Shown in pieces: positions 1 to 47,974 of a stretch of DNA of 64,000 bases. A model generated the notes under the pieces. That model was not told the DNA's origin. It saw nothing but the letters and a program-made list of their open reading frames with translations, and did not search any database. The DNA comes from Halomonas sp. (GTDB lineage: Bacteria > Pseudomonadota > Gammaproteobacteria > Pseudomonadales > Halomonadaceae). The first letter of the stretch is position 1. Every line of letters begins with the position of its first letter. The stretch is from assembly GCF_017983445.1 (NCBI RefSeq), contig NZ_JAGOBJ010000009.1, positions 186,001 through 250,000 on the forward strand, read 5' to 3'. The translations under genes were made by a program, and so were the position numbers.

Positions 1-1
1 A

Positions 2-1417: not shown

Positions 1418-1452
1418 CATTGCAGTGTAGCTGAAAGTATTTTGAAGGCATA

Positions 1453-1492: not shown

Positions 1493-1499
1493 ATTTAGT

Positions 1500-1576: not shown

Positions 1577-1610
1577 ATGCCTCGTTGGCATTTTCCTTAA
1601 GACGGTGCGT

Positions 1611-1639
1611 ATAATAGCGCTTTATCCGACAAATGAAAA
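1611..1639 (-). promoter_or_regulatory. Predicted sigma70 promoter of tRNA-Pro
   Basis: On the minus strand TTTTCA (1634-1639) is separated by exactly 17 bases from TATTAT (1611-1616). The 5' end of the tRNA is about 35 bases further on, a normal distance for a precursor leader. Inferred from sequence only. Confidence 0.6.
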
Positions 1640-1707
1640 GCTCTTTTTGCGCTTTCTTTTCAAGTATTTGCCATGACAAGGGGATCACTTGATTACACCG
1701 AGTAGGC

Positions 1708-2517: not shown

Positions 2518-2612
2518 GCTCTTTTATCCTTCAAACACTTGACCAAAATTTTAGAGCATAGTCACACACCATGACTTTTTTAAGTCACACACATGCAGTA
2601 AAAGCATCAATA

Positions 2613-3068: not shown

Positions 3069-3179
3069 CGTAAGCTCTTCACCTGACGCAGAAGCCTACA
3101 GTGTAGAGAGAAAATAAGTAGACAGTGTGGAAATAAAAAGGCCTATCAAGTAAGACAGTACGCTAAAGCATGCTGGCCA

Positions 3180-3599
3180 TTAGGAGTTCTCAGAAACAAT
3201 ATTGCCAGCTTCAATGTTAATGCTGCCAGCACTGTCACCACGATGTGTCTTGATACCCTCTACGTCAACGCTAGCGCCGCTACCTATAAAAGCCGTAGTT
3301 AAGTTTTCCTTACTAACTGCCGATGCGGCAAGGTCACAAGAATTAAATTTAAAATCATTGATAGCTACGGGATTGGCTTCTTCTACTTGAGAAAGGGAGT
3401 AACTAGTCAACACCATGTTTCGATAAGAAGCCAACTCACCTTCACAGGCAGTTAATGAGGCCTTATCAAGATAATTGCCATATTGCGGTACCGCCACCGC
3501 CATCAAAACACCAATAATGGCAATCACGACCATTAACTCTATAAGCGTAAAACCACACTGAAAGCTTATGCCTCTGATATCATTAGCATATCTTTTCAT
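3180..3599 (-). CDS. pilA: Type IV pilin (major pilin precursor)
   Basis: The structural subunit of the type IV pilus, 139 aa. A 16-residue leader ends in Gly before the mature start F-TLIELMVVIAIIGVLMAVAVPQY, with Glu5 conserved; PilD cleaves after that Gly and N-methylates Phe1. The hydrophobic N-terminal helix is followed by a variable head. Two head cysteines (..TACEGE.. and ..NSCDLA..) could form the disulfide of the D-region, though they sit further from the C-terminus than usual. A GAGGATAT ribosome site precedes ATG 3599. The gene diverges from pilBCD, sharing a 225-bp AT-rich intergenic region. Confidence 0.95.
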   Translation of the reverse strand: MKRYANDIRGISFQCGFTLIELMVVIAIIGVLMAVAVPQYGNYLDKASLTACEGELASYRNMVLTSYSLSQVEEANPVAINDFKFNSCDLAASAVSKENLTTAFIGSGASVDVEGIKTHRGDSAGSINIEAGNIVSENS

Positions 3600-3824
3600 T
3601 TCATATCCTCAAAAAATTTAGGAAAGCCTATTTCCCAAGGCCACAAACTATAAGCACTCCACTATTAGCAGCCTCATCTAATCCACGAACCTAATAACAA
3701 ATAACATCAAATAAAAAACATACCAAATAAAAATTAACTTTTTTTATAAAAAGCATTGTTTTTAGCACCCTATCATAGGAATATAGTTATTATCCATTTA
3801 TATAAATTATTTGCTTGGGCCGCT

Positions 3825-5519: not shown

Positions 5520-5522
5520 TGC

Positions 5523-6755: not shown

Positions 6756-6772
6756 GCTTATCAAGGAGCGTT

Positions 6773-7615
6773 ATGAGTTCGTCGGCATTAGGTATTGGCG
6801 CAGCAGTCTTTGTACTAGGGCTTTGCCTGGGAAGCTTTTTAAATGTGGTGATTACCCGTCTGCCCGTCATGTTAATGCATTACTGGCGCCATGAAGCACG
6901 GGCGGCACTCGAGCTGCCTATTGAGCCCCCTTCACGCTTTAACCTGGCCACACCAGGTTCACTATGCCCGCGCTGTGAACAACCCATTGCCTGGCACGAT
7001 AACCTTCCTCTGATAGGCTGGATAAAACGGCGTGGCCAATGTGCAAGCTGCCAAACCGATATCAGCCCACAGTATCCTCTTATAGAGCTAATGGGCGGTC
7101 TGCTTGCCTTGGCCGTTACGTTACTCCATGGGTTTAGCGTTTCAAGCCTATTTATTTATGCGGCGTGCATGACACTTCTGGCGCTCGCAGTTATCGATTT
7201 TCGAACGTACCTTCTACCCGACGTGCTAACACTGCCATTACTCTGGGCCGGCTTGCTATATCAATTATTTTTTCAGCCATTCTCACTGACTAACGCTGTA
7301 ATAGGCGCCATGGCGGGCTACCTGATACTTTGGAGTTTCTTTTGGGCATTTAAGCTGCTTACGGGTAAAGAAGGCATGGGGTATGGAGACTTCAAGCTTC
7401 TAGCCGCTTTGGGTGCTTGGCTCGGCTGGACATTTTTACCCTTGCTATTATTGCTTTCAGCTGGCCTTGGGGCAATTGTCGGCATTATTGCGCAGGCAAG
7501 CTTTCCACGCTTACGCGGCGCCCCTCTTCCTTTTGGGCCCTTCCTGGCTATTGCGGGATGGGTATGCCTGTTAGTAGGTAACGACCTAATGGCTGTCTAT
7601 CTCTCTTATCCCTAA
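6773..7615 (+). CDS. pilD: Prepilin peptidase / N-methyltransferase PilD
   Basis: A bifunctional membrane aspartyl protease that removes the prepilin leader and methylates the new N-terminus; it probably processes the PilA encoded opposite and any type II secretion pseudopilins. The 280-aa protein has the cytosolic tetra-cysteine zinc loop (CPRCEQPI..CASCQ, residues 63-96), the first catalytic Asp in AVIDFRTYLLPDVLT and the second in the GMGYGDFKLLA motif. Seven or eight hydrophobic segments are visible. ATG 6773 follows AAGGAG. It is the last gene of the pilBCD run. Confidence 0.95.
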   Translation: MSSSALGIGAAVFVLGLCLGSFLNVVITRLPVMLMHYWRHEARAALELPIEPPSRFNLATPGSLCPRCEQPIAWHDNLPLIGWIKRRGQCASCQTDISPQYPLIELMGGLLALAVTLLHGFSVSSLFIYAACMTLLALAVIDFRTYLLPDVLTLPLLWAGLLYQLFFQPFSLTNAVIGAMAGYLILWSFFWAFKLLTGKEGMGYGDFKLLAALGAWLGWTFLPLLLLLSAGLGAIVGIIAQASFPRLRGAPLPFGPFLAIAGWVCLLVGNDLMAVYLSYP

Positions 7616-7745
7616 TATTTCAACCTCGCTCTCCTTACTGGCTTATCAATCATTTTGTTATGGCCAGAATATCAATCTGAAGATACCGACTTTCCACGTA
7701 AAAGCGCGTAAAATAGACCCTCAAAGAACGTATTGAAGGGCGGCT

Positions 7746-8336
7746 ATGATTATTGGCTTAACCGGTGGTATTGGTTCAGGAAAATCAACGGTTGCACGCG
7801 CATTTGAATCGCTAGGTATTGGTTGGGTCGATGCTGACGATGTCGCCAGAGAGATAGTTGAGCCAGGTGAGCCTGCACTAAGCGCAATCATCAATTACTT
7901 TGGCCAGTGCGTTGCCAAAACAGATGGCACGCTTGATAGGGCGACGCTGCGCTCACTGATTTTCGAAGACCCATCCAAGCGTCAGTGGCTTGAAGCAGTA
8001 ACACACCCTCGAATCAGGCAGCGCCTGATTGAGCATCTGACGCGTTTATCGGGTGGCTCGCCTTACATTTTACTCGTCTCACCGCTACTTTTTGAATCAG
8101 GCCAAGATGCGTTGGTTGCCCGTTCGATCGTTGTGGATGTGCCGACCGACATGCAGCTCTCACGAACGCTCGCCCGCGACGGGGTAAGCGCCAAACAGGT
8201 TCACGCAATTCTTGCCGCTCAGCTTCCCCGTGAAGAGCGCTTAGCGAAAGCCGACGATGTGATTGATAACAGTGGTAACCATGCCTACTTGATGAAACAA
8301 GTCGAGCGCTTGGACAAAGCCTACCGTAACGGCTGA
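7746..8336 (+). CDS. coaE: Dephospho-CoA kinase
   Basis: Catalyses the final step of coenzyme A synthesis, phosphorylating the 3'-hydroxyl of dephospho-CoA. The 196-aa protein has the P-loop GLTGGIGSGKST at residues 4-15, the DADDVARE substrate motif around 32, the VSPLLFE region and a C-terminal lid (LAAQLPREERLAKADDVIDN). ATG 7746 follows GAAGGGCGG. The pilD-coaE-yacG order is common in gammaproteobacteria and supports the assignment. Confidence 0.96.
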   Translation: MIIGLTGGIGSGKSTVARAFESLGIGWVDADDVAREIVEPGEPALSAIINYFGQCVAKTDGTLDRATLRSLIFEDPSKRQWLEAVTHPRIRQRLIEHLTRLSGGSPYILLVSPLLFESGQDALVARSIVVDVPTDMQLSRTLARDGVSAKQVHAILAAQLPREERLAKADDVIDNSGNHAYLMKQVERLDKAYRNG

Positions 8337-8366
8337 TTTAATTTTTAAATTTTAGGATTTTTTGCT

Positions 8367-8600
8367 ATGTCTCACTCCGCCAATGATGCCCCGCTTGAAG
8401 TTAACTGCCCACAATGCGGCAAAACGGTTGCCTGGTCACCTGAAAGCACCTATCGACCGTTTTGCAGTAAGCGCTGTCAATTAATTGATTTTGGCGCGTG
8501 GGCAGAAGAATCTCACCGTATAGCAGGTGAATCAGCCATGGACGAAGCTGATCTGGATACCTTGCTGGCACAAGCTGATAAAGATGCGCCTCTTTCTTAA
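8367..8600 (+). CDS. yacG: DNA gyrase inhibitor YacG (zinc-ribbon protein)
   Basis: A small zinc protein (77 aa) of the family in which E. coli YacG binds GyrB and inhibits gyrase. Four zinc-ligand cysteines are visible, CPQCGK near residue 14 and [14 protein letters not shown] near 34, followed by an acidic C-terminal tail. It follows coaE by 30 bases and is probably co-transcribed with it. Confidence 0.93.
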
Positions 8601-8633
8601 CGGATGGTTGATCAGATGAGGTAAATATTAGCC

Positions 8634-9509
8634 ATGCAGCAACCCGACGTAACCGCTTATCACTTATTGCATGAGCTTGATGATCGATTTGACCATCTAG
8701 TTGATGCTATCGAGGTAGCCTTGAGCCTTTACGAACGGCAGCGCCCAGCTACGTGGGTTCTGCATCAGTCGACCGTCGATTCCGACTGGCTGCGTCACGC
8801 GCTGCTAGATATGTGGCATCAGGAAGGCCAAGATGGGCGGGAGACACGTAATTACGTAGGGGTGGTTGCCGCTGATGAACCGCTTATCGAAGCCGTTGGC
8901 GTTATTAATCATGCTAAAACGGCGATTAGCGAGTTAATCCAAAAAATAAAAGCGCTCTCTCCAAAAGCGTTTGGAGAAATCAAACACCGCCTACCGCAGC
9001 GTCATCCCCACGTGGACAATGTACTGCAGCGCAGCGGCTTTGCCAGGCTGCATCTTAAGCAATGTTGGCGACATCTACCCATCGCTGAAACGCCCGTCTC
9101 ACGTATACGTCTTGCCTGGTACAGCAGTGGTCGTTCGATCAAACGACTGAGCGTCCAGGAGGCGGAACGCAAACTGATGCAGCTGGACACACAAGCACCA
9201 CACATACGTATTCAGTTGCGTAAGCTGGCCGCTCTTCCGAGCAGTGAGGTATTGGCACAGGTGCAAGCCCAAGCACCTTTAATGCGAGCCAACCTCTTTT
9301 TTACCGAACCTCTGCTTGATGGACATTCGCGACGAGCTCTTAATATAGCCATGCCACTATTTGTCCCCGCTCCTGAGCAGCGTCTACCCCACGTTAACTC
9401 GCCGCCCTTGCAGCCACCTCTAGAGCGCACACGCGCTAGAAGACGTGATGAAAAGCTTGAGCACGATCCATACCTGCCTAGCTTGCGTATTTATCGCTAC
9501 CGTCAGTAA
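8634..9509 (+). CDS. tus: Tus-like replication terminus site-binding protein
   Basis: A 291-aa basic protein that by eye aligns along its length with E. coli Tus (309 aa), the Ter-site binder that blocks replisomes from one side. Shared landmarks are the INHAKTAISELI helix (Tus HINKLKTTFEHI), IRLAWYSSGRSIKRLS (Tus LRFGWANKHIIKNLH), the RKLAALPSS turn (Tus IAALPQN), the strand before an ..NIAMPLF.. stretch (Tus TPLIALI), and a C-terminal LPSLRIYRYRQ (Tus IPRLHLYVAD). Identity is modest, so Ter recognition is inferred. It lies 33 bases after yacG. No E. coli-type Ter core was found in this window. Confidence 0.72.
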   Translation: MQQPDVTAYHLLHELDDRFDHLVDAIEVALSLYERQRPATWVLHQSTVDSDWLRHALLDMWHQEGQDGRETRNYVGVVAADEPLIEAVGVINHAKTAISELIQKIKALSPKAFGEIKHRLPQRHPHVDNVLQRSGFARLHLKQCWRHLPIAETPVSRIRLAWYSSGRSIKRLSVQEAERKLMQLDTQAPHIRIQLRKLAALPSSEVLAQVQAQAPLMRANLFFTEPLLDGHSRRALNIAMPLFVPAPEQRLPHVNSPPLQPPLERTRARRRDEKLEHDPYLPSLRIYRYRQ

Positions 9510-9510
9510 G

Positions 9511-9545
9511 GCCTGTTGACGGTTAACGATGAGCCATCAACAGGC
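9511..9545. terminator. Inverted repeat between convergent genes
   Basis: A perfect 9-bp inverted repeat (GCCTGTTGA with TCAACAGGC, 17-base loop) starts right after the tus-like stop codon and ends 11 bases before the stop of the convergent gene. There is no real T run, so it may be a weak bidirectional terminator or simply protect 3' ends. Confidence 0.5.
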
Positions 9546-9556
9546 ATATATAAGGG

Positions 9557-9895
9557 TTAAGGCGCAGAAATAGCCGGTGCTTGTTCTTGCGGCCAGAGGT
9601 CATATTCCAACAAGGTTGAAATCAGTTCATTCAATGCCTGGTCTGATTGGTCGTATTCGTTCATTAACGCTTTCAATTGCTGCTCGAACAAACGATCCCT
9701 TACCTGTAGCTGTTCATCTGCGTCGTCTTTTTCTAACGCAGCCAAAGAGCGTACCGGGGGTCCTGTAGGAATATCAAAGCCACTATCAGGATCTTCCAAC
9801 TGACGTAATGCCTGCGCAAATGCATCATCCAACTCACGAAACTTGCGCAGTTTGTCACGTTCATCCAACTGTTTTGGAGCTTTGTGATATTTCAT
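9557..9895 (-). CDS. Hypothetical protein, 112 aa, helical and acidic
   Basis: No family recognised. The product starts with a basic segment (MKYHKAPKQLDERDKLRKF), continues with Leu/Glu/Asp-rich stretches predicted to be helical (..DDAFAQALRQLEDPDSG.. and ..LFEQQLKALMNEYDQSDQALNEL..) and ends in a Pro/Ala tail. It has no cysteine, signal peptide or membrane segment. Codon use looks like that of its neighbours, which supports a real gene. It converges on the tus-like gene and its upstream side faces the 1-kb gene-free region. Confidence 0.6.
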   Translation of the reverse strand: MKYHKAPKQLDERDKLRKFRELDDAFAQALRQLEDPDSGFDIPTGPPVRSLAALEKDDADEQLQVRDRLFEQQLKALMNEYDQSDQALNELISTLLEYDLWPQEQAPAISAP

Positions 9896-10237
9896 TGATG
9901 TTTCATTTACACCTTACTTGAAATGGTCGAAGCACCTGTCAGGCAGGTATTTTCCACAAGTTGTGCTCAATTGCGTAAAGTTAATCGAACAATTAGTCTC
10001 TGTTTGATGCAAGACAACCAATAAATTGTGATAACTCGCAGGTCTATCAATTTAGCTCTCTCAGTGAAAGCTCGCTGATGCCGATAAATGCACATGAACT
10101 AGCAAAGAACGCAAAAAAACATGCAGCTACACTATCTAAGAATAGATAGGTAATCATATACTGACCCGCCAGCAATCCCATGACCCGTCAGAAAATCATT
10201 GAAAGCTGATAGCAGACACCGAACACGCACCTAAAAC

Positions 10238-10282
10238 AGCCAGACACTGCTCAACTTACTAGTACGGACTAAAAGTCTGGCT
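10238..10282. repeat. Inverted repeat in gene-free region
   Basis: AGCCAGAC at 10238-10245 is the exact reverse complement of GTCTGGCT at 10275-10282, with a 29-base loop. There is no T run. It may be structural or a remnant of a mobile-element end. Confidence 0.4.
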
Positions 10283-10320
10283 GCAAGAAAATACGCTGAT
10301 TAAACTACCCAGCCAGCAGT

Positions 10321-10774
10321 AACGGCTTTGCGAACCGTTTAATGTATCCAGCATCGCGGCGAGTCATCAGCGTTATCAACACAGAGCATAGTTCACAATC
10401 GAACGACTCTCAATCATGTAGCAATGGATATCAAAGCATACAGACTAAGGCAGGTATATCAAATATCTGATCAACCAGCTGTACAAAAAATCCTGGCCAA
10501 TTAGTCGACAGGCTATACGCTGGCTGAAGAAGCCAAGCACTGTCACTCACCTTTCCATAGTGATCTGACAACACCAGAACATATGCAGCCCGGAGTAATT
10601 CGAGATCGCCTATCTGCGAAACACTAAGGGAGTATACCTTGAAAAGACCTACATTGCTGGCCTGCCTGTATTAACCCTTGGCTAATGCAGGTTGAGCATC
10701 TTACCCAGTTTACTCAATCATCAATACGGTAAAATCAGTTCTGATTACTCCACAAAAGCACAACGGCTTTGCGA
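10321..10774 (+). repeat. Direct repeat AACGGCTTTGCGA, two copies
   Basis: The 13-base word AACGGCTTTGCGA occurs at 10321-10333 and again at 10762-10774, in the same orientation, 441 bases apart, both inside the gene-free region. The flanks do not match beyond the word. Confidence 0.6.
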
Positions 10775-10919
10775 TATCTTAACCACCTGAATTAATAGCT
10801 TCACTGGTTTATTAGACCCTATTAGTGACTGGTTTTCTCGTTGTTAAAAGCTTTTTGGGAATTTGACCAGCGGTAATACAAAAACGGCATTTCTTGGTAG
10901 AAATGCCGATCATTACTAT

Positions 10920-11297
10920 TTAGTCTTCCATGCTTTCCAGCCAAGACTCAACAGTTTCATCACCGTATTCGTCTTTCCAGCTACGCAAACCTTTATGGTT
11001 ACCGCCGCGAGTTTCAATTACTTCACCCGTTTTTGGGTTTTTGTAAATTTTTAGACGGCGCTTACGGCGATTTGCATTATTACCAGTAACAGCTTTCGTG
11101 CCACGCTGATCGTTCGCGGGGTCTAAAAGCGCAATAACATCTGCAGGACGCTTACCAAACTCGTTCATCAACGCTTCAAGCTTAGCCTTGAATTCCAACT
11201 CGCTTTTTAAACGCTGATCGCCTTCGAGACGCTGCAAGTCTTCTTGAAGCTGCTTAAGTTGCTGCTCTTTTTGAATATATTCATTTAAAAGTGACAT
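10920..11297 (-). CDS. mvaT: MvaT/MvaU-type H-NS family xenogeneic silencer
   Basis: A nucleoid protein of the Pseudomonas MvaT group that coats AT-rich DNA and silences acquired genes. The 125-aa protein has an N-terminal coiled-coil oligomerisation region (residues 1-60, MSLLNEYIQKEQQLKQLQ..). The C-terminal DNA-binding domain carries KIYKNPKTGEVIETRGGNHK (about 82-101) and DETVESWLE, closely matching MvaT. ATG 11297 is preceded by AAGGA. The gene has its own AT-rich upstream region (11298-11537), a typical setting for autoregulation (inference). Its position next to rpsA, where ihfB is usual, is odd. Confidence 0.92.
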   Translation of the reverse strand: MSLLNEYIQKEQQLKQLQEDLQRLEGDQRLKSELEFKAKLEALMNEFGKRPADVIALLDPANDQRGTKAVTGNNANRRKRRLKIYKNPKTGEVIETRGGNHKGLRSWKDEYGDETVESWLESMED

Positions 11298-11537
11298 GGG
11301 GGAGTCCTTATACTTCAGGTTTATCTACTAGATATTGAATTGACCTACTCAATATCCATTAGTTCAGAATGCGCGCTCATTATTACGTTAAAACTACACT
11401 TTGACAATAGTCTAGCCGGTTTTCATTTGGCTACTAATATTTTTTTAAGTGTTTAATGTACTTTTATAAACATTTAAATATTTGATTAGCGCCAATCAAA
11501 TAAAACAATACCACTAGAGGACAGTAAACTCACATAC

Positions 11538-11563
11538 AAAAAAACGCCGCCCATAGGGCGGCG
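11538..11563 (-). terminator. rpsA terminator
   Basis: A perfect 8-bp GC stem (CGCCGCCC 11545-11552 with GGGCGGCG 11556-11563), a 3-base loop and a run of seven A on the plus strand (T on the transcript) form a strong terminator about 27 bases after the rpsA stop. It indicates that the supraoperon ends with rpsA here. Confidence 0.92.
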
Positions 11564-11589
11564 CTTCTTAGAACCAGCGACTAAATAGC

Positions 11590-13266
11590 TTAGTCTTGGC
11601 CCATCTGCTGCTTGATCAGATCACCGATAGTGGTCGGACCACCAGCTTCGGGCTCTTGATCACGCAGTTTCTTCAGGTTCTGACGAGTATCGTCTTGCTC
11701 TTTCGCTTTGATCGACAGATTGATCTGACGGCTCTTGCGATCAACATTGATGATACGCGCTTCAACGCTGTCGCCTTCGTTCAGTACATTGCGCGCGTCT
11801 TCAACACGGTCAGCACTGATTTCAGAGGCTTTGAGGATGGCAATAACATCGGTTGCCAGCTCAACGTGTGCTTCTTTAGCATCTACTTCAACAATACGGC
11901 CAGTCACAATGCTGCCCTTATCGTTAACAGATAAGTATTCAGCAACAGGATCGGAATCCATTTGCTTGATACCTAAAGAGATGCGCTCACGCTCAGGATC
12001 GATAGACAGAATAACGGCTTCGGCTTCATCACCTTTCTTGAAGTTACGAACCGCTTCTTCGCCAGTCTCTGTCCAGGAAATGTCGGACAGGTGAACCAGA
12101 CCATCGATACCGCCTTCAAGGCCGATGAAGATACCGAAGTCAGTGATTGACTTGATGGTACCTGAAACACGGTCGCCCTTGTTGTATTCAGCGTTGAACG
12201 TTTCCCACGGGTTAGCAGTGCACTGCTTGATACCCAGAGAAATACGACGACGCTCTTCATCGATATCCAACACCATGACGTCAACATCATCGCCCACTTG
12301 GACAACTTTAGACGGATGGATGTTTTTGTTGGTCCAATCCATTTCAGAAACGTGAACCAGACCTTCAACGCCCTCTTCCAGCTCAGCAAAGCAGCCGTAA
12401 TCGGTCAGATTAGTGACCACAGCATGTACTTTGGTGCCTTCCGGGTAACGCTGTTTAATGTTGACCCACGGATCTTCGCCCAATTGCTTCAGACCAAGTG
12501 AAACACGGTTACGCTCGCGGTCAAACTTAAGCACTTTAACGTTGATTTCGTCGCCAACAGCAACGATTTCAGACGGATGCTTGATACGTTTCCACGCCAT
12601 ATCGGTGATATGCAGCAGGCCGTCAACACCACCCAGATCTACGAACGCGCCGTAATCTGTCAGGTTCTTAACGATACCTTTAATCTGCTGGCCTTCCTGA
12701 AGCGTTGCCAGTAGCGCTTCGCGCTCGGCACTGTTTTCAGCTTCAAGAACGGCACGACGAGAAACAACAACGTTATTACGCTTCGGATCGAGCTTGATGA
12801 CTTTAAAGTCCAGCTCTTTGTTTTCCAAATGCGCAGTATCGCGAACCGGACGTACGTCGACCAAAGAACCCGGCAGGAAGGCACGGATAGAGTCGACGTC
12901 GACAGTGAAGCCGCCTTTGACTTTACCGTTGATCACGCCTTTGATGATTTCGTCTTTCTCGAAGGCGGCTTCCAGAATCTTCCAAGCTTCTGCGCGCTTG
13001 GCTTTTTCACGGGACAGACGCGTTTCACCGAAGCCATCTTCTACAGCTTCCAGTGCAACGTGAACGTCGTCACCGATAGCGATGTTTAATTCGCCATTTT
13101 CATCGCGGAATTGTGCCGCCGGGATTTGGCCTTCGGATTTCAGACCAGCATTGACGGTAACCCAGTCGCCATCGATGTCGACAACTTGAGCCGCGACGAT
13201 AGCGCCTGGCTCCATGTTAATGTCGTTAAGGGACTGTTCAAAAAGTTCAGCAAAGCTTTCGCTCAT
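11590..13266 (-). CDS. rpsA: 30S ribosomal protein S1
   Basis: Essential RNA-binding protein that helps the small subunit bind mRNAs. The 558 aa are the usual length, with six S1 (OB-fold) repeats; repeats 3 to 6 carry the recurring pattern of KGxxxxxTDYGxFxxLxGxxGLxHxSDxxW followed by VxVLxxDxERxRxSLGxKQ. Residues 1-25 form the ribosome-anchoring start ([15 protein letters not shown]). It lies 195 bases after cmk on the same strand and ends at a strong terminator. Long open frames on the opposite strand here are shadows of its codon bias. Confidence 0.98.
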
Positions 13267-36682: not shown

Positions 36683-37690
36683 CTAAAAGCCTTGGTGCTC
36701 GAGCTTATCAGCCAGCGATTCTAGCACGTCGATCCCTTGCACATCGGTCGCCAACCAAGGCAGCGTGGGTCGAGGAAGATGCTCAAAGAGCGTGTCGATT
36801 CGCTCAAGATAGGTCGCCTCCTGCGCGCGTCGTGCCTGCAAAAAGGCACCATCCGCTTCTTCAGGTATTACCCGGTTAACCAGCACGCCCGCCACGTTAA
36901 TCTTAACCTCTTCCAAGGCGTTGACGGCGCGCTGAGTCTCAAGGATGGGCAGCCGCTCGGGAGTCATCACAAATAAAAAGCTGCACGCCTTGGCATCCTC
37001 TATTCGTCGCCGAGCCTGGTGGAAAAGCCGTCGTCGATTGATGAGCGTTTCTGCCACCTCGCGGGTACGCTCATCCAGGCCGGAAAACGCATCTTCCGTT
37101 GGGTTATCAAAAGGGGTGGCGATATCCTGCCCGCGTGAGGGCGTAAGATGCTTTAACACGCCGCTTAACTCAGCCGATTTTCGGTTGTGCGCCAGCAGTC
37201 CGTCCGTCCAGGCTGCCATGGCTTCGGGTAGGGTTAAAAGGCGCAGCGTATGTCCGGTGGGTGCTGTATCGATAATCACCAGGTCATACGGTGCATCGTC
37301 ATCCAGAATCAGTCGAGCCAGCCGCTCAAGCAGGGCCGCTTCCTGAGTGCCTGGGGATTGACGCGTCAGACGCATTTGCCGCTCTAGCTCCTGCATCATT
37401 TCGGGCGCGGCGAAGCGGCGCATTTGCTGGGTGACTCTAGTTAAATGCGCTTCAACCTCACTATCCGGATCTATCTCCATGGCATCCAGGTTAGGCAGCA
37501 AACGGCGTGGCGTATCGCCTAACGCGCGATCAAACACATCGCCCAGGCTATGCGCGGGGTCAGTCGAAACCACCAGCACGCGCTTATTACGCCTGGCTGC
37601 AAGAATCGCCAAAGAGGCGGCGACAGTCGTTTTACCCACGCCACCTTTGCCGCCTACCCACAGTAAGCGGCGGTTGAGAACTGAGTGCAT
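36683..37690 (-). CDS. ArsA/Get3-family ATPase
   Basis: A single-domain SIMIBI-class ATPase, 335 aa. It has the deviant P-loop GGKGGVGKTTVAASLA (about 13-28) with the intermonomer lysine, switch I STDPAHSLGDVF (about 42-53) and switch II DTAPTGHTLRLL (about 140-151). The family includes arsenite-pump ATPases and Get3 membrane-protein targeting factors. No arsB or arsR is nearby, so an arsenic role is not supported. It heads a minus-strand stretch with a Cys-Cys-ended small protein and a CstA-type transporter; in transcription order the transporter comes first and the ATPase last. Confidence 0.85.
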   Translation of the reverse strand: MHSVLNRRLLWVGGKGGVGKTTVAASLAILAARRNKRVLVVSTDPAHSLGDVFDRALGDTPRRLLPNLDAMEIDPDSEVEAHLTRVTQQMRRFAAPEMMQELERQMRLTRQSPGTQEAALLERLARLILDDDAPYDLVIIDTAPTGHTLRLLTLPEAMAAWTDGLLAHNRKSAELSGVLKHLTPSRGQDIATPFDNPTEDAFSGLDERTREVAETLINRRRLFHQARRRIEDAKACSFLFVMTPERLPILETQRAVNALEEVKINVAGVLVNRVIPEEADGAFLQARRAQEATYLERIDTLFEHLPRPTLPWLATDVQGIDVLESLADKLEHQGF

Positions 37691-37769
37691 AGGCTACCTA
37701 TTTGTTAAATTAATTTAGCCGCCTATTTATAAGTTCATTTGCCAGGCTTTTTAACCTGGAAGTGACGCT

Positions 37770-38072
37770 TTAGCAGCAGCGAAAATGATCCAACGGTGAA
37801 TGCTCCATGCCCATTCGCGTATGCCAGTCGTGAAAACGCTCAAGCAGCAGCGGCTGAAGCTCCAGCGTGTAATAGGCCGCGGGGTTAGGTACCCCCATCA
37901 TTTCTGAAAAGACTAACAGCATGAACAGGTCATCTTCATCGCGGCGCGCTCGCGCAATCGCCCCACGATAGCGCGCACTATAGACCTCTTCGGTAAAAAA
38001 ACGGGCCCGCCCCAGCCAGGCCCGAAACGTATCCCGCTTGGATGACGACGCTTTACTCGAGTCATCACGCAT
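37770..38072 (-). CDS. Small protein ending in Cys-Cys (cory-CC-star-like)
   Basis: A 100-aa basic/aromatic protein lying between the CstA-type and ArsA-family genes. The core FRAWLGRARFFTEEVYSARYRG (about residues 16-37) and DLFMLLVFSEMMGVPNP (about 48-64) lead to a C-terminal EHSPLDHFRCC followed directly by the stop codon. The terminal CC, the Arg/Tyr-rich core and the position beside a CstA homologue fit my recollection of a family labelled cory-CC-star; no function is known to me. A CC tail suggests metal or thiol chemistry (inference). Confidence 0.75.
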   Translation of the reverse strand: MRDDSSKASSSKRDTFRAWLGRARFFTEEVYSARYRGAIARARRDEDDLFMLLVFSEMMGVPNPAAYYTLELQPLLLERFHDWHTRMGMEHSPLDHFRCC

Positions 38073-38106: not shown

Positions 38107-39783
38107 TTAGTCGCCTTGGGCCGCCATTTCAGCGCGCGAGCGTTTAAGCGCTGCGGCACACTCCATGGCGACTAGAATGGCCGCCATCAGCACTACAATA
38201 TCCAGCACTAACAAGAACATGTTGCCCTGGTTCCAGAAAGTACGCAGTTGGATAAGAAGCGCCAGAATGGTCATGATTAATAGGAAGCAAAGAGGCGCTA
38301 GGGTGTACCACATGGGGCGCCGCAGGCGTACCAACATAACGGTAATTACCAAGAGCGTTAACCCGGCAAGCAGCTGGTTGGTAGTGCCAAACAGCGGCCA
38401 GATAATCAAGCCACCGGAGCCATCCGCACCTCCGGCACCAAATGCCAGTAATAGGCAGGTGCCAACGGCAAGCGCGGTTGCCAGCGAAGGTTTTTTCATC
38501 CATTGCTGGTTATAGATATCGCCCCACTCCTGGAAGATATAGCGCTGCAAACGAAGCCCGGTATCCATGGTAGTGCCTGCAAACAATGCGGCCATGACGG
38601 TCAGTAGCGTTGCCGCGGTGGTTTCAGGCAGGCCCAGGCCGTTATGAATAATAAATGCGCCGCCTTCCACAAACGCGTTCACCCCGCCCTGACCAAAGGC
38701 GCTGTACATGGCCTGCCAATCGCCAAATGTCGCAAACCCAGCGGTAGCCGCCAAAATAGCCGCCAACGCCAGCATGCCCTCGCCCACCGCGCCAAAGTAG
38801 CCCACAAACCGCGCATCGGTTTCTTTATTGAGCTGCTTGGAAGTAGTGCCTGAAGAGACCAGCCCGTGGAATCCTGATATTGCACCGCAGGCAATCGTGA
38901 CAAACAGCAGCGGAATCATTGAAGGCGTACCGGCAGGCACGTTGTCATTAAAGGCAGGCGCAACCAGCGTTGGGTTAAGCAGCACCAGCGCCCCATAAAG
39001 AATCAGCAGGCCGATAAATAGCTGCAAACCGTTGATGTAGTCGCGTGGCTGCAGCAGCATCCATACTGGTAAAAGTGAAGCGATGGCCGCGTAGCCAAAG
39101 AGAATCAGAATCCAGATCGCGTTACCCGATATCCCGGCAACGTCGGCAGGCATTTGAATGGGCACCATGGGGCCAATACCAATCAGCGCATAAAGAGCGA
39201 TAACGCCTAGTACGGATACCACCGCCAAGCTCATTATCCGCCGATAAATCAGCTGTCCAATGATCAGCGCCACAAAAATCGCCCCCCACACCGGCACCAC
39301 TGCACTGGGGAAATTCATCATTAACCCGGCAATGACCACGGCAAACACGGCATTGACCATGAGCAGCACCAGGAAAATCACGATCATGAAAATACTGCGG
39401 GCGCGCTTACCCACCACATCGCCCGTCAAGGCGCCTACCGATTTGGCTTTATTGCGCACACTGGCCCAGATAGCACCAAAGTCATGCACGCCGGCAAAGA
39501 AGATCGTACCGAAAACAACCCATAAAAACGCCGGAGCCCAGCCCCATATCACTGCAATTGCAGGGCCTACAATGGGGGCGGCTCCGGCAACCGAGGTAAA
39601 GTGATGTCCCCATAGCACAAAGCGGTTGGTTGGCACATAGTCGATGCCGTCTTCGAATTCATGGGCGGGGGTTTTGAAATCAGGATCAAGTTGATAGATC
39701 TTTTGGGCAATAAATTTGGAATACAGAAAGTATCCTAAAGCCATTGCCCCAAGTCCGATTAATAACAGGATAACAGCACTCAT
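38107..39783 (-). CDS. cstA: CstA-family (carbon starvation / peptide or pyruvate) transporter
   Basis: A polytopic inner-membrane protein, 558 aa with about 16 hydrophobic segments. The N-terminal LDPDFKTPAHEFEDGIDYVPTN segment, WGHHFTSVAGAAPIVGPAIAV (about 58-78), AGVHDFGAIWAS and the SGFHGLVSSGTTSKQ block identify the CstA family. E. coli members CstA and BtsT import peptides or pyruvate. This is the shorter family type (E. coli CstA is about 700 aa). AAGGAGC precedes ATG 39783. It is first in a minus-strand run with the CC-ended small protein (34-base gap) and the ArsA-family ATPase. Confidence 0.93.
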   Translation of the reverse strand: MSAVILLLIGLGAMALGYFLYSKFIAQKIYQLDPDFKTPAHEFEDGIDYVPTNRFVLWGHHFTSVAGAAPIVGPAIAVIWGWAPAFLWVVFGTIFFAGVHDFGAIWASVRNKAKSVGALTGDVVGKRARSIFMIVIFLVLLMVNAVFAVVIAGLMMNFPSAVVPVWGAIFVALIIGQLIYRRIMSLAVVSVLGVIALYALIGIGPMVPIQMPADVAGISGNAIWILILFGYAAIASLLPVWMLLQPRDYINGLQLFIGLLILYGALVLLNPTLVAPAFNDNVPAGTPSMIPLLFVTIACGAISGFHGLVSSGTTSKQLNKETDARFVGYFGAVGEGMLALAAILAATAGFATFGDWQAMYSAFGQGGVNAFVEGGAFIIHNGLGLPETTAATLLTVMAALFAGTTMDTGLRLQRYIFQEWGDIYNQQWMKKPSLATALAVGTCLLLAFGAGGADGSGGLIIWPLFGTTNQLLAGLTLLVITVMLVRLRRPMWYTLAPLCFLLIMTILALLIQLRTFWNQGNMFLLVLDIVVLMAAILVAMECAAALKRSRAEMAAQGD

Positions 39784-40044: not shown

Positions 40045-40419
40045 ATGGCAAAAGTGCTGGTGGTCGATGACGAACCGAACATTGTGCTATCGATCGAGTT
40101 TTTAATGGAGCAGGCAGGGTTTGAAGTTACGAGTGCCGTCGACGGTGAACAGGCACTTGAACAGGTAACAATCAATAAGCCGGATGTCGTGCTACTGGAT
40201 ATCAGCCTTCCTGGCATCAGCGGGTTCGATGTACTGGAAGCACTGCGTAGCCGCCCGGCGACATTATTACTTCCGGTTATCATGCTTACAGCGCACGGGC
40301 GAGAGGTAGAGCGTGAGAAGGGATTCGCACTGGGCGCTAACGCCTACATTACCAAACCGTTTTCAACCCAGGCGCTTGTTGATCAAGTGCAAACCGTGCT
40401 GGCTGAAAGAACCTCATGA
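40045..40419 (+). CDS. Stand-alone CheY-like response regulator
   Basis: A single receiver domain of about 124 aa with no output domain. Acidic pocket VVDDEPN (about 5-11), phosphoacceptor Asp in [11 protein letters not shown] (about 51), Thr in MLTAHG (about 81) and Lys in YITKPFS (about 103) are all present. ATG 40045 follows AGGTGGG; an in-frame GTG at 40036 is an alternative. It overlaps the next gene by 4 bases and is a likely phosphorylation partner of the histidine kinase at the end of the cluster. Confidence 0.93.
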
Positions 40420-42473
40420 TGCCCAAGGGGCTGCCCAAACGACAGCGCCTGATTGGCGCCTGGCTGTTACTAAGCGCTTTTAGCCTGCTGGGCGGCGCTC
40501 TGTTTGCCGTGTGGCTGGAAAGCCAGCTGGAAGTTACCGGGGTCTATCAGCTGCTGCTCTGGCTGGGGTGTTTTTCAGGTAGCGCCACAATATTTGCAAT
40601 GGGTTTATTGCTTGAGCGCATGCTGTTTAGACCTGTACGCCAGCTACAGGCGCAGCTCGCCCGCCTGGTTGCCAACCCTGATACCGAAGATTTCTCGCAA
40701 CCTCAGGGCTGGCTGAAAGGATTAGCCCCGGACTTGCGCCGCGCGCAAGAGGGCTGGCAGTCAGACCGCCGCAGACTGCATAGAGCCCATGCGGACGGCG
40801 CCAAAAGCGCTACCCGCATTCGTAAAGAGCTTGAGGCTTTGCTTCAAGTGCTGGAAACGCCCCTTCTGCTTTACGATAGACACCGCCGTCTGATGCTCTT
40901 TAACCAGGCGGCTGAGCGGTTTTTTTCTGGCACGCCCAGCCTGGGCTTGGGTAAGCGGCTGGAAGCACTGTTTCCGCTGGCGAGTTTGCAACAAACCCTA
41001 AGCCAGCTGCCGGCCGATGGCACCCAGCGTGAGCTTCTAGTGCCCTGTGATAACCGCTGGCTGAAAGTGATCATACGCCGCGTGCCTGAAAGCCAGGATG
41101 AAACGCTGATTACCTGTAGCGATGCGACCGCCGCCTGGACAAACGAAAGGGGCGTTCGTGCAGAGCTTGCGCAAATGTTAACCCCGTTGCGCCAGCATAC
41201 GGCAAGCCTGGTAACGGCCACCGACGCATTGGGGCAACTGCGCCAGCACGATGATGAAAGCGGCTCCCTTGGCCACCGCTTGGAGCAAGTGGCGAGTGAA
41301 GAAAGCATCGCCCTGAGTGAGACAGTGGCCCGAATTGGCGGGCTTATTGAAGCTATACAGCAGCAAGGCGAGCGCCTTACCTCCATATGGTCCAATGATT
41401 TTTGGCAAATGCTGGACGACCACCTGGACCCCGCCCACCGTTTGATTACCCCGATTGGGGTACCTGCATGGTTTAAAGGCGATGCTCCGGCACTCATGGC
41501 CCTGTTTAGCTCGCTGGTTAAGCACCTAAGTGACTTTATTACGGGCAGCATCTTCGAGGGCGAAGTTTCTATCAGTCCCAAACATACCTACCTGGACCTT
41601 ATATGGCGAGGCCAGCCGATACCAGAGCGCGAACTTACCCAATGGTGTAAAAAATCGTTGGATACGCTTCCGTTGAGCCCCAGCGCTGCGGACGTACTGC
41701 GCCAACATGCCAGTGACGTATGGAGTATCCAGGACGCCGACGGCCAGCATGCACGCCTGCGGCTACCACTGCCTTCTGTTGAGCAAGGTGAGGCACCGCG
41801 CGTTGTCATGCCGCGGCCTGAATTCCATGATTTTGGCATCGCCGACTTACCTTCTCCCGACGCGGCCTTGGCCAACCGCCCCTTAAGCAGCCTTGAGCTG
41901 GTTATTTTTGATACCGAAACAACCGGGCTCGAGCTTCGCCGGGGCGATACGGTTATTAGTCTGGGCGCCTGCCGTATCGTCAACGGGCGCTTACTAGCCA
42001 GCGATGTTTTTGATCATTACGTGAACCCGCAACGGCCAATTCCCGCGGCAAGCACCGCGATCCACGGAATTACCGATAATGATGTTATCGATGCGCCTGC
42101 TCTAACGCCCGTACTGGCACGTTTTCGCGACTACATCGGTGACGCGGTGTTGCTTGCCCATAATGCTGCTTTTGATATGCTCGCGATTAACCAAAAAAGC
42201 GTTTTATTCGATATGCCGGTGCTGGATACCTTGCTAATCTCACGGGCACTGGATGAAGCGCTTGATGGCCATGATCTAGACAGTCTGGTACAGCGCTACG
42301 GCTTAATATTACCCCCGGGATTGCGCCATACGGCGCTGGGCGATGCTCGGGTAACCGGAGAACTTTGGCTTGCTCTGTTACCCCGCCTTGAAGCGCGAGG
42401 TATTACGACACTTGAGCAGCTGTTGCGCTTTCAAGCTAGCGCGTTTGATCGAGAGGATGCCAGCGCTTCATGA
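40416..42473 (+). CDS. Membrane protein fusing a histidine-kinase-like body to a DEDDh exonuclease
   Basis: A 685-aa mosaic. Two N-terminal transmembrane helices (about 10-33 and 43-64) lead to a HAMP-like segment (..[14 protein letters not shown]..) and a PAS-like region ([29 protein letters not shown], about 140-170 in two halves). A long region (about 250-485) resembles HisKA plus ATPase, but I see no phospho-His HELR box and no G-box motifs. A complete DnaQ-like exonuclease follows: FDTETTGL (about 496), HNAAFDMLA (about 581) and HTALGDAR (about 637) supply the DEDDh residues. It overlaps the receiver gene and the next small gene by 4 bases each. DNA or RNA substrate unknown. Confidence 0.82.
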
Positions 42474-42673
42474 CTCCTTCAAACCCACGCCACCGCGAAA
42501 GGCTGCTAGTGCTGGTCATCTTGGCCCTGGTGCTTTTCTGCCCGCCGTTACTACTGGTGGTCGACCGCTTCCCCTCGTTTGGTATCGGTTGGTTACCGGT
42601 TTATCTTTTCTGTAGTTGGGCCTTGATTATTGGTCTGACCGCGTGGCTGATGGAACCTACTACAAGGCGATAA
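42470..42673 (+). CDS. Small two-helix membrane protein, 67 aa
   Basis: ATG 42470 overlaps the exonuclease-fusion stop by 4 bases, and the stop is 2 bases before the CrbS-like start. A basic N-terminus ([11 protein letters not shown]) precedes two hydrophobic helices (LLVLVILALVLFCPPLLLVV, about 12-31, and WLPVYLFCSWALIIGLTAWLM, about 41-61). The shape recalls small partner subunits of sodium/solute symporters (DUF4212/DUF485 style), but I cannot confirm a family. Its place inside a four-gene operon suggests it assembles with the transporter-kinase. Confidence 0.7.
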   Translation: MTPSNPRHRERLLVLVILALVLFCPPLLLVVDRFPSFGIGWLPVYLFCSWALIIGLTAWLMEPTTRR

Positions 42674-42675
42674 CC

Positions 42676-45429
42676 ATGCGAACGGATGCGCTGATACTGA
42701 GTGCGGTGTTCGGCTATTTAGGGCTGCTGTTTCTGGTGGCCGCTTGGGGTGACCGGCGAGCCGAACAGGGCCGCTCTATCATCAACTCGCCCACGGTTTA
42801 TGCACTTTCCATTGCGGTTTATTGTACGGCGTGGACGTTCTACGGCAGCGTAGGACGGGCAGCGCAATTTGGTCCAAGCTTTTTGCTTATCTATCTCGGG
42901 CCAACGCTTGCGATGATGTTATCACCGTTTATTATCCGCAAGATGGTACGCATTGCCGCGCGCCAGCGGCTGACCTCCATCGCGGATTTTATTAGTGCGC
43001 GCTACGGCAAAAGCGTCGGACTTGGCGCGTTAGTAGCGCTCATATCGCTGATTACCATTACGCCCTATATCGCGCTGCAGTTAAAAGCGATTACGGTTAG
43101 CCATGCGGTGCTGATCAACTACCCCCAAAGCGCCGATTCGATCCTTTATAACGAGCGCTTCTGGATGGATCGGTCGCTATGGGTGGCCCTCGTATTAGCC
43201 GTATTTATCATTTTATTCGGTACCCGTCACCTGGACGCCAGTGAACGCCATGAAGGCATGGTGGCAGCTATTGCCCTGGAATCGCTGGTCAAGCTGGTGG
43301 CCTTCCTGGCGGTGGGCATTTTTGTCGTTTTCATTTTGTTTGAAGGGCCAGGCGCGCTTTTTGCTAAAGTGGCTCAAACGCCTGCGTTAAGCCAATTAAT
43401 GCAGCTGGAGAGTGTTCCAGGTGGTGCAACCGGCTGGGTGGGCATGTTGATTCTCGCCTTTCTGGCGTTTTTAACCCTGCCACGCCAGTTTCAGGTATTG
43501 GTGGTGGAAAATGTCGATGAGCAGCACTTGGCTCGGGCCAGCTGGTTGTTCCCCTGTTATCTACTACTGATCAACCTATTCGTTATTCCCATTGCCCTGG
43601 CGGGATTACTACTCGATGCGGGGGACCCAGACAGTTTTGTACTTACGCTACCGCTTTCCGCAGGGCTCGAGGGTCTTCCACTGCTGGTCTTTATTGGTGG
43701 GCTTTCTGCGGCCACGGGTATGGTCATCGTTGAAACCATTGCACTTTCCACCATGGTCAGCAACCAATTGATCATGCCGCTTTTATTACGCTCCAAAGCC
43801 CTGCATGCAGATAGCCGAGGAGGTCTTGCCAGGTTGCTGCTAAGAGTACGCCGGGTAGCCATCGTGCTTATTTTGCTGCTTGGCTATCTCTATCACGCGC
43901 TCATTGGCGATACCTACAGTCTGGTTACCATTGGGCTGGTATCTTTTGTCGGAGCGGCACAGTTTGCGCCTGCACTTCTGATTGGACTTTATTGGCGTGG
44001 AGCAACCCGGCTGGGAGCAATGTATGGGTTAATCGCCGGTTTTTTAATCTGGGGCTACACGCTGCTTCTGCCCGGTTTTGCTCAATCTGGTTGGCTGGAC
44101 TCATCGCTACTTTCGGATGGCCCTTGGGGAATTGGCTGGCTAACGCCCTACGCACTTTTCGGGTTGGAAGAGTGGGATATTTATAGCCATTCACTTCTCT
44201 GGAGCATGCTCATAAATGTTGGGCTGCTGGTAGGGATTTCGCTCTTTACGCGCCCCACTCCGCTTGAACAAACCCAGGCGGCCCTGTTTACCGAGGCGCT
44301 ACATCCCAATTTGCAAACCACAACGCTACAGCGCGGCCAGACTACTCAAGGCGCGCTGTATGAGCTACTGGTTCGTTACTTGGGTTTTAAAGTCGCCCTG
44401 CGGGTTTTCTCAAAACGTACCCATAACTTCGAATTAACCCAGCCCAATCAACCCGCGTCCGATGACGTTATTATGCGCGCTGAGCAGGCACTCGCGGGCT
44501 CACTGGGTAATGCCTCGGCACGCATACTGATCAACTCGGTGGTGAGGGGTGAAGCGCTCGATATCGAATCAATTCTCAGCATGCTGGATACCACGACGCA
44601 AACCCTGGAATATAACCGTCAGTTAAAGCAGAAATCAGACGAACTTGCGCGCATAGGACAAGACTTACAAAGTGCCAATGACCGCCTTCGCGAGCTCGAC
44701 CGCTTAAAAGATGAGTTTGTGGCCATGGTCAGTCATGAACTACGCACGCCGCTCACCTCGATTCGTGCGTTTGCAGAAATTCTCGCAAGCCATCAGACCA
44801 TTCCTGAAACCAAGCGACAGCACTTTCTGCAAGTAATGGTGCTAGAGAGCCAGCGTCTATCACGCCTGATTGATGAAATTCTCGATCTTGCTCGCTTGGA
44901 GAGCGGCCGTATGCCCCTCAATGCTGTGCCGCTTGATTTGGCTGCACTTGCCGATCATAGCCTTGAGGCTATTGCGAGACTCCAGGAAGAGCGCAACGTT
45001 AGTCTTACCATCGCAATTGATGAACGACCCGCCCGAGTCATCGGCGACCCCGACCGCCTGGAACAAATTATTATCAATCTGTTAGATAACGCCAGTAAGT
45101 TTGCAAACCAGGAGGATCCGCGCGTCTTACTGCGTCTGTTTAAGCAGAATCAGCATATCTATCTATGCGTTGAGGATAATGGCGTGGGTATTGATGAGAA
45201 GGAGCGCGAACAGGTATTTGAAAAATTCAATCAACTGCTGTCCAGCGATAAAGCAACGAGTAAACGCCCAAAAGGCAGCGGCTTAGGGCTACCCATTAGC
45301 CGAGCGATCGCTACACATTTAGGCGGCAGGCTTTGGGTAGAAAATGCCCAGGTTTTAAACGGCGCGCGCTTTGTGTTAGAACTTTCTGAAGCTGCTACCA
45401 ATCTAGAGACCCCAACTGATGGGCACTAG
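42676..45429 (+). CDS. CrbS/CbrA-like sodium:solute-symporter histidine kinase
   Basis: About 917 aa. The N-terminal 550 residues form a sodium:solute symporter fold with about 13 hydrophobic segments (SIAVYCTAWTFYGSVGRAAQ at about 37-56). A linker with coiled coil (about 635-680) leads to HisKA with the phospho-His in VSHELRTPLTSIRAF (about 690) and a complete HATPase domain (NLLDNASKF, DNGVGI, GSGLGLPIS). No C-terminal receiver domain is present. CrbS homologues control the acetate switch in Vibrio and Pseudomonas; acs is not in this window. ATG 42676 is chosen because the longer frame overlaps the upstream small gene. Confidence 0.9.
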   Translation: MRTDALILSAVFGYLGLLFLVAAWGDRRAEQGRSIINSPTVYALSIAVYCTAWTFYGSVGRAAQFGPSFLLIYLGPTLAMMLSPFIIRKMVRIAARQRLTSIADFISARYGKSVGLGALVALISLITITPYIALQLKAITVSHAVLINYPQSADSILYNERFWMDRSLWVALVLAVFIILFGTRHLDASERHEGMVAAIALESLVKLVAFLAVGIFVVFILFEGPGALFAKVAQTPALSQLMQLESVPGGATGWVGMLILAFLAFLTLPRQFQVLVVENVDEQHLARASWLFPCYLLLINLFVIPIALAGLLLDAGDPDSFVLTLPLSAGLEGLPLLVFIGGLSAATGMVIVETIALSTMVSNQLIMPLLLRSKALHADSRGGLARLLLRVRRVAIVLILLLGYLYHALIGDTYSLVTIGLVSFVGAAQFAPALLIGLYWRGATRLGAMYGLIAGFLIWGYTLLLPGFAQSGWLDSSLLSDGPWGIGWLTPYALFGLEEWDIYSHSLLWSMLINVGLLVGISLFTRPTPLEQTQAALFTEALHPNLQTTTLQRGQTTQGALYELLVRYLGFKVALRVFSKRTHNFELTQPNQPASDDVIMRAEQALAGSLGNASARILINSVVRGEALDIESILSMLDTTTQTLEYNRQLKQKSDELARIGQDLQSANDRLRELDRLKDEFVAMVSHELRTPLTSIRAFAEILASHQTIPETKRQHFLQVMVLESQRLSRLIDEILDLARLESGRMPLNAVPLDLAALADHSLEAIARLQEERNVSLTIAIDERPARVIGDPDRLEQIIINLLDNASKFANQEDPRVLLRLFKQNQHIYLCVEDNGVGIDEKEREQVFEKFNQLLSSDKATSKRPKGSGLGLPISRAIATHLGGRLWVENAQVLNGARFVLELSEAATNLETPTDGH

Positions 45430-47305: not shown

Positions 47306-47974
47306 ATGAGCGAGGCAATTGCCCGCGAATTAATGGCCCAACGTTTTCGTAGTTATCTACCGGTTGTCATTGATTTAGAAACGGGTGGCTTCAATGCCCA
47401 AAGTGATGCCGTGCTTGAGATTGCAGCCGTCACGCTCACCATGGACCCAGAAGGTAACCTGCTGCCTGATGCGACCTACGCCTATCATATCAAGCCGTTT
47501 GAAGGCGCTAATGTCGAACAGTCCGCACTCGATTTTACCGGCATTAATCTCGATGACCCACTGCGTCGCCAAGTAGCGCTCAGTGAGTCTGAAGCGTTAG
47601 GCGAAATTTTCCGTCCCATACGCAAATCGATAAAAGCGCATGGCTGCTCCCGGGCGATTTTGGTAGGCCATAATGCCGCCTTTGATCAAGGCTTTCTTAA
47701 CGCGGCTGCTAACCGCTGCAACGTTAAACGTAACCCTTTTCACCCTTTCTCGAGTTTTGATACCGCAACGCTTGCTGGCCTGGTTTATGGGCAGACAGTG
47801 CTGGCACGGGCTTGTCGCGCAGCGGGTATCGAATTTGATAATAAAGCGGCGCACTCTGCACGCTATGATACCGAGCGTACCGCGGAATTATTCTGCGCCA
47901 TGGTCAACCGTTACAAGGATCTGGGCGGCTGGCGTTTAGCTCAGCGCGAACAGGATCTGGACGACGGCGAATAA
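47306..47974 (+). CDS. rnt: Ribonuclease T
   Basis: DEDDh 3'-5' exoribonuclease that trims tRNA and other stable RNA ends, 222 aa. The three exonuclease motifs are visible: [20 protein letters not shown] (about 22-41), [10 protein letters not shown] (about 122-131) and [14 protein letters not shown] (about 182-195). TAAGGAG lies 8 bases before ATG 47306. It is divergent from argG with a 212-bp shared promoter region. Confidence 0.96.

Follow-up and report, generated by a model that had tools for sequence, protein, structure and literature searches.

What does a membrane protein do that joins the body of a histidine kinase to a nuclease, and can such a protein be the end point of a two-component pathway? 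The question is raised by a locus of Halomonas sp. on contig NZ_JAGOBJ010000009.1, in a stretch of 64,000 nucleotides that is called the window here. Four same-strand (+) genes are packed into positions 40045-45429 of the window: a lone receiver, a fusion of a kinase-like body with a DEDDh exonuclease, a small membrane protein and a symporter-type sensor kinase. Judging by conserved residues, a dead histidine kinase joined to an apparently intact exonuclease is present in many bacteria, often beside a symporter-kinase and a small receiver. The cluster is tentatively read, at somewhat less than an even chance, as a two-component pathway with the nuclease as its output, read out through the pseudokinase. 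The features are as follows.

40045..40419, + strand: single-domain (CheY-like) receiver, 124 amino acids; Pfam Response_reg 6.5e-30; phospho-acceptor D52, T82 and K104 present.
40416..42473, + strand: membrane-anchored pseudokinase-exonuclease fusion, 685 amino acids, from Pfam, alignments and a whole-protein model.
40416..40787, + strand: two-helix membrane hairpin and helical linker of the fusion, residues 1-124; hydropathy peaks at residues 21 and 55, model helices 8-37 and 42-86.
40821..41126, + strand: PAS domain of the fusion, about residues 136-237; sub-threshold Pfam match (0.0099), PAS/PAS_4 in relatives, model.
41127..41369, + strand: DHp-like helical hairpin of the fusion, residues 238-318; Thr256 stands where the phospho-His would be, and R259 (H+3) is retained.
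41370..41780, + strand: CA (HATPase) fold of the fusion without ATP-binding motifs, residues 319-455; W397 replaces the G1 Asp.
41883..42425, + strand: DEDDh 3'-5' exonuclease domain of the fusion, residues 490-670; Pfam RNase_T 1.1e-26; D499, E501, D587, H638 and D643.
42470..42673, + strand: small two-helix membrane protein, 67 amino acids; hydropathy peaks at 22 and 47; overlaps the fusion gene and stops 2 bases ahead of the kinase gene.
42676..45429, + strand: sodium/solute-symporter-type sensor histidine kinase, 917 amino acids; Pfam SSF, HisKA and HATPase; H687 and ATP motifs intact.

Start and stop codons were checked at all junctions, which are a 4-base overlap, a second 4-base overlap and a 2-base gap; the receiver starts at the ATG at 40045, and the mechanical open reading frame (ORF) opens at a GTG 9 bases upstream. 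The tight cluster of a preliminary description, made from the sequence alone, is thus accurate in coordinates, codons and spacing, and its domain calls, one excepted, agree with Pfam, a profile-profile match and the predicted fold. The cluster is real and its arrangement is beyond chance. The four genes occur in the window's order in 15 other loci (L041, L042, L043, L045-L048, L066-L069, L072, L076, L081 and L121; L067-L069 are Halomonas records), and in the order small protein, symporter-kinase, receiver, fusion in 12 loci (L051, L053, L085, L090, L095, L106, L110, L111, L115, L122, L129 and L133).

The family set comprised the window protein and 79 relatives (n=80; ORFs of at least 560 amino acids having both parts), and was drawn from the loci of several searches, among them a pattern scan in which 80 loci were taken from at least 268 confirmed. 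The RNase_T (PF00929) match of the window fusion covers residues 496-649 (E 1.1e-26, 94.8 bits against a curated cut-off of 24), and HisKA, HATPase and HAMP gave no Pfam match in it at E <= 0.1. The kinase-like body, although unseen by Pfam in the window protein, is judged real, because a profile-profile comparison aligns the middle of the fusion to the DHp-CA of the neighbouring kinase (probability 99.2, E 2e-19, 207 columns) and the predicted fold agrees; the two together identify the DHp-CA fold of HisKA kinases. Structure prediction against HATPase folds, a check proposed in advance, returned the CA (HATPase) fold for residues 319-455. The alignments behind the structure predictions held 57 sequences (the window's and those of 56 of the 79 relatives), and the models are of single chains. 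The domain call that failed was a HAMP-like part: the window fusion has no Pfam HAMP match, and among 57 family members scanned HAMP was called in just 3, with PAS in 28, PAS_4 in 29 and HisKA in 2. The whole-fusion model has a mean predicted local distance difference test score (pLDDT) of 86.2 and a predicted template modelling score (pTM) of 0.43. By hydropathy and model, the membrane part is a hairpin only, leaving no sizeable periplasmic sensor domain, so the fusion probably takes its input from the cytoplasm, from the membrane or from the partner kinase.

The phospho-accepting histidine, reported absent from the window protein (Thr256), is absent from the family: none of the 77 members with a residue at this place has His, the commonest residues being Glu (36) and Asp (20). 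The place of the G1 aspartate is Trp in 77/80 members (W397 in the window) and Asp in 0/80, a second Trp at position 410 is present in 74/80, and the N-box Asn is found in 2/80 at the first place and 0/80 at the second. The G2 glycines of the fusion were not seen in the profile-profile alignment with the neighbouring kinase. Of 6 pairwise comparisons of DHp and CA, 3 allowed a ratio of nonsynonymous to synonymous substitution rates (dN/dS) to be computed, and it was 0.16-0.21; synonymous sites were close to saturation or beyond it, and the ratios give only a rough sign of constraint. A recent, casual decay of the kinase is rejected, given the identical residue losses in relatives and, as a rough sign, these ratios. 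The earlier word "decayed" was too weak for a loss that is family-wide. Because the non-catalytic state is common to the family and is accompanied by conserved Trp residues of its own, a repurposed pseudokinase fits the kinase part better than decay. Catalysis was surrendered in the fusion yet retained in its neighbours, since the phospho-Asp and Lys are kept in 55/55 aligned adjacent receivers and the His, N, G1 and G2 residues in 40/40 aligned adjacent symporter-kinases, the window's included in both cases. The window symporter-kinase matches HATPase (1e-23), HisKA (1.6e-19) and SSF (2.3e-5) in Pfam.

The five DEDDh residues D499, E501, D587, H638 and D643, a full set already recognized in the window protein, are intact in 80/80 members; the search patterns, FDTETTGL (containing two of these catalytic residues) and [PEA]RPEF[YH]DF (linker), partly selected for the residues they cover. 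The residues suggest 3'-5' exonuclease activity of the C-terminal domain. The closest solved chains by sequence are the exonucleases of PolC, the best match, and DnaQ, which share domain and catalytic residues with the fusion. Of the 119 exonuclease domains placed in a FastTree (PolC-type domains and PP_0353 of Pseudomonas putida itself absent), 94 fall into one clade with a support of 0.79: the 80 fusions, 9 short forms, 3 exonuclease-DUF294 fusions and 2 others. This clade groups with three sampled PP_0353-like sequences at 0.953. Deep branches are weak, as seen in the 0.79 of the fusion-containing clade and the 0.045 for the three PP_0353-like sequences together. The DnaQ-type controls differ from the fusion: a clade of their own, supported at 0.999, unites 18 control exonucleases with the genome's DnaQ and one further sequence, and no polymerase link was seen for the fusion. 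An ordinary RNase T gene (47306-47974, +; NCBIfam TIGR01298), next to argG, encodes another DEDDh protein near the cluster; it falls outside the fusion's clade and served as the tree outgroup.

By record title, relatives of the fusion come from Halomonadaceae, Marinobacterium, Ectothiorhodospira, Rhodobacterales (including Rhodobacter capsulatus), Rhodospirillales, Burkholderiales, Rhodocyclales and Desulfuromonadales, joined by a single Pseudomonas record and by a few metagenome bins whose labels name other phyla. Within 8 kb of 88 anchored fusion loci, seed BLAST found DUF294 at 62, a lone receiver at 56, a symporter-kinase at 39, an SSF transporter at 38, the small protein at 35 and DUF485 at 10; 9 of 97 loci were dropped for want of an anchor with both domains. 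The 18 control exonuclease genes have none of these six neighbours within 8 kb; they are from Gammaproteobacteria only and mostly DnaQ-sized (L162 and L176 are short on one side), the fusion loci spanning more phyla. Five of 60 wide-flank loci have no symporter-kinase, DUF294, SSF or DUF485 (L082, L099, L118, L120 and L141). Chance linkage of the exonuclease is rejected, given the 79 fused relatives and the 0/18 control loci with these neighbours. Of 145 genomes from the window's own taxonomic order, 5 have the kinase part of the fusion, and exactly these five hold the symporter-kinase at 65-100% identity (its relatives at 65-78%); the remaining symporter-kinases among the matches listed are at most 45% identical and lie in other proteins.

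In the preliminary description the cluster kinase is set beside CrbS-type kinases, which govern acetate use. Like CrbS/CrbR (MxtR/ErdR) and other SLC5/STAC histidine kinases (CbrA, RpuS), the gene at 42676-45429 joins a symporter (SSF) domain to an active-looking kinase core. CrbS is a hybrid kinase (PMC5715377, in the part consulted), and no PAS or own receiver domain was matched by Pfam in the window symporter-kinase. Unlike CrbS/CrbR, it presumably passes its signal to the lone receiver, not to a transcription factor. The hybrid layout is found instead in a separate CrbS-like kinase of the same genome (L158; 1313 amino acids, SSF-PAS-PAS-HK-REC), which has an SSF transporter and a DUF294 gene close by. 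In view of the missing domains of the cluster kinase, its relatives that track the fusion and this separate hybrid, its orthology to CrbS is rejected. It is highly improbable that the cluster is a CrbS/CrbR acetate system with a nuclease as chance neighbour: the two kinases are both of SSF type and 43% identical across the symporter part, but the hybrid is encoded elsewhere, the exonuclease belongs to one and the same polypeptide both in the window and in its 79 relatives, and the cluster has no DNA-binding response regulator, its receiver being a lone 124-residue domain (the search did not extend to regulators elsewhere in the genome).

The receiver is linked to the pseudokinase. It adjoins 51/70 fusions with a pseudokinase against 0/11 forms without one (Fisher p 4.5e-6, relatedness uncorrected), in loci with at least 1 kb on each side and no ORF at an end; exclusion of L071 and L108, which have broken frames in their contigs, reduced the pseudokinase-less forms from 13 to 11 and changed p from 6.6e-7. 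The membrane part is kept in 10 of these 11 (L144 is without it), and L105 keeps a weak pseudokinase remnant. Six Rhodobacterales forms of 470-495 amino acids (L124, L132, L134, L135, L138 and L139) consist of membrane part and exonuclease, with no pseudokinase and no adjoining receiver, and are natural deletions useful for tests. On the exonuclease tree (81 tips) about 6 changes of pseudokinase state and about 14 of receiver state were counted, so that the co-loss is more than one event, yet far fewer than the counts suggest. Three residues picked from 218 columns differ between receiver-linked members and others: R259 (H+3), which is Arg in 50/51 against 11/19, W436 (50/51 against 6/19) and E296 (49/51 against 10/19).

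A precedent for such a reader is DivL of Caulobacter, which has a histidine kinase fold without the catalytic His and PAS domains in front, and reads the phosphorylated single-domain receiver DivK; its R553 to Ala change weakens DivK~P binding (PMC4211667, seen in part). By spacing, three past the phospho-His place, R259 is the equivalent of R553. The fusion has the kinase fold and lacks the His, and R259, Arg in 50/51 receiver-linked members, is a candidate part of a receiver-docking face, subject to descent as set out below. DivL differs in having no nuclease and is not an orthologue, and receiver binding by the fusion is a prediction. Pseudokinases can reportedly also regulate active kinases, as DivL does CckA (according to abstracts). 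The pseudokinase might act upstream, pairing with or restraining the symporter-kinase or receiver at the membrane, the exonuclease acting alone and merely being held there. This is considered unlikely: fusion and symporter-kinase share a locus in 39/88 cases, but Rhodobacterales loci such as L078, L080 and L083 (the last from a Rhodobacter capsulatus record) have receiver and fusion and no symporter-kinase within the fetched stretch.

The nearest described relative of the nuclease is P. putida PP_0353. According to PMC9927547 (sections 7 and 8), this gene, with an RNase_T match, is in an operon with the CBS protein gene PP_0354, the promoter of which binds ErdR; the PP_0353 mutant grows poorly on pyruvate and normally on 20 mM acetate or succinate, a PP_0354 mutant has no growth phenotype on pyruvate, and published transposon data cited there suggest a role for PP_0353 at 5 mM acetate. 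The P. aeruginosa homologues adjoin actP and yjcH, and the authors speculate on mRNA degradation (same source). A nuclease role in such a pathway, which the preliminary description took to be undescribed, is partly anticipated in print by PP_0353 in the CrbS-type (MxtR/ErdR) pathway; for a nuclease on a pseudokinase as a two-component output, no description was found in searches of open PubMed Central (PMC) papers. The PP_0353 type resembles the fusion in that an exonuclease of RNase_T type is associated with a CBS/DUF294 gene, with ActP and with a pathway under an SSF-type kinase, and in the tree grouping. It differs in being a stand-alone gene without membrane anchor, PAS, pseudokinase or lone receiver, the window exonuclease being the C-terminus of a 685-residue membrane protein; the genome has a separate DUF294-exonuclease pair (L159) of the PP_0353 kind. 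PA3232 and PA3233 of P. aeruginosa are presumably the homologues of PP_0353 and PP_0354. PA3232-PA3235 were up about 16-fold in growth on propionate, and PA3233-PA3235 down two-fold after propionate addition (PMC9765439, in part).

We infer that the nuclease is the output of a sensor. The symporter-type kinase would sense a small carboxylate and phosphorylate the lone receiver; once phosphorylated, the receiver would dock on the pseudokinase at its DHp helices, and the pseudokinase, anchored in the membrane, would act as a reader, as DivL does for DivK~P. Docking is proposed because of the co-loss and the DivL precedent, and the carboxylate input because of neighbour genes and PP_0353; the route probably serves acetate- or pyruvate-like nutrients. 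The pseudokinase itself would be without phosphotransfer and, by its residues, without ATP binding. The signal would run through the CA domain and the conserved R-P-E-x-x-D-F linker to the exonuclease, whose activity at the membrane would thereby be switched on or off; the enzyme would trim a 3' nucleotide end of mRNA, of a short RNA or of the product of the often-nearby DUF294 nucleotidyltransferase. As to substrate, decay of transcripts of central-carbon or transport genes is a rather improbable variant, in line with the speculation on PP_0353 and with carbon-source genes near fusion loci; the nearest solved relatives by sequence, PolC and DnaQ, are DNA-polymerase exonucleases, which speaks against it.

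Several points weigh against a nuclease read out through the pseudokinase. The low pTM of the fusion model leaves domain packing, including the placement of the exonuclease, unfixed. The receiver is also lost where the pseudokinase stays (19/70 members without an adjoining receiver), and 49/88 loci have no symporter-kinase within 8 kb, some of them being cut short. Descent confounds both the co-loss test and the R259 test, because 5/6 Gln cases at 259 are delta-proteobacterial (four Desulfuromonadales/Desulfuromonas titles and one Deltaproteobacteria), and R259 conservation could be structural in origin. PP_0353 is stand-alone, its mutant has no acetate defect at 20 mM (PMC9927547, in part), and the PP_0353-like gene of L048 shares only 28% identity with the window exonuclease domain.

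The boldest reading is a nucleotidyl writer-eraser pair, since the DUF294 partner recurs and is fused to same-clade exonucleases. DUF294 would add nucleotides to protein or RNA, the DEDDh exonuclease would remove them and the pathway would set the balance; this is held to be doubtful. DUF294 lies within 8 kb of 62/88 fusion loci, the nucleotidyltransferase motif G-x-x-R...DxD is kept in 72/73 DUF294 ORFs of these loci, PP_0354/PP_0353-like gene pairs occur in L048 and the window's own genome, and a same-clade exonuclease is joined directly to the N-terminus of CBS-DUF294 in L054 (9528-11690, by Pfam), L055 (7915-10092) and L056 (8825-10924; both by alignment). On the other hand, the window cluster has no adjoining DUF294 gene, the genome's only two copies lie elsewhere and one is without the motif, and of the P. 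putida pair only the PP_0353 mutant has a pyruvate phenotype (PMC9927547, in part). The motif-less copy, paired with the PP_0353-like exonuclease (L159, 4487-6427), may be a pseudo-enzyme, judging by its residues. Short DUF294 proteins (about 370-420 amino acids) are encoded just downstream of the cluster in L041 (3779-5017), L043 (4319-5434), L066 (13027 on) and other relatives; no CBS match was found by Pfam in those of L041 and L043, the two scanned. The phrase 'nucleotidyltransferase DUF294' had no match in the open PMC papers searched.

The small 67-residue protein has no Pfam or NCBIfam match, and BLAST finds relatives within 8 kb of 35/88 fusions. In size, layout and two-helix prediction it resembles CbrX of P. 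putida, a small two-helix ORF in front of cbrA that works via translational coupling with cbrA and not via its peptide sequence (PMC6591292, in part). The window protein may act by translational coupling likewise, but its sequence is conserved enough for detection in those 35 loci.

Divergent from the receiver gene lies a CstA-family transporter gene (38107-39783, -), with 86% identical copies in two of the fusion loci (L066 and L067) and fragments in L071; its top NCBIfam name, pyruvate/proton symporter CstA, is far under the cut-off (248 against 1188 bits). The transporter would fit a carboxylate link. A Cory-CC-star protein gene (36683-38072, -; NCBIfam NF041419) adjoins an apparent ArsA-type ATPase gene, identified by eye only. 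Window positions 1-12000 have a G+C content of 0.45-0.49, against 0.51-0.56 elsewhere in the window, and carry apparent pilus assembly and coaE genes (by eye).

In its widest form, which is thought improbable, the cluster would represent a widespread conserved phosphorelay, ending in neither transcription, cyclic-nucleotide turnover nor motility, in which a phospho-receiver gates a membrane-tethered exonuclease via a histidine pseudokinase, opposed to DUF294, and so writes and erases nucleotide ends that control acetate- or pyruvate-like carbon use. If the cluster is rightly read as a pathway with a nuclease output, two-component systems gain a class of output, a nuclease on a pseudokinase; the reading would then be relevant, too, to the pyruvate phenotype of P. 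putida PP_0353, so far unexplained, and to those neighbourhoods in many Proteobacteria where DUF294, exonuclease and symporter genes lie together.

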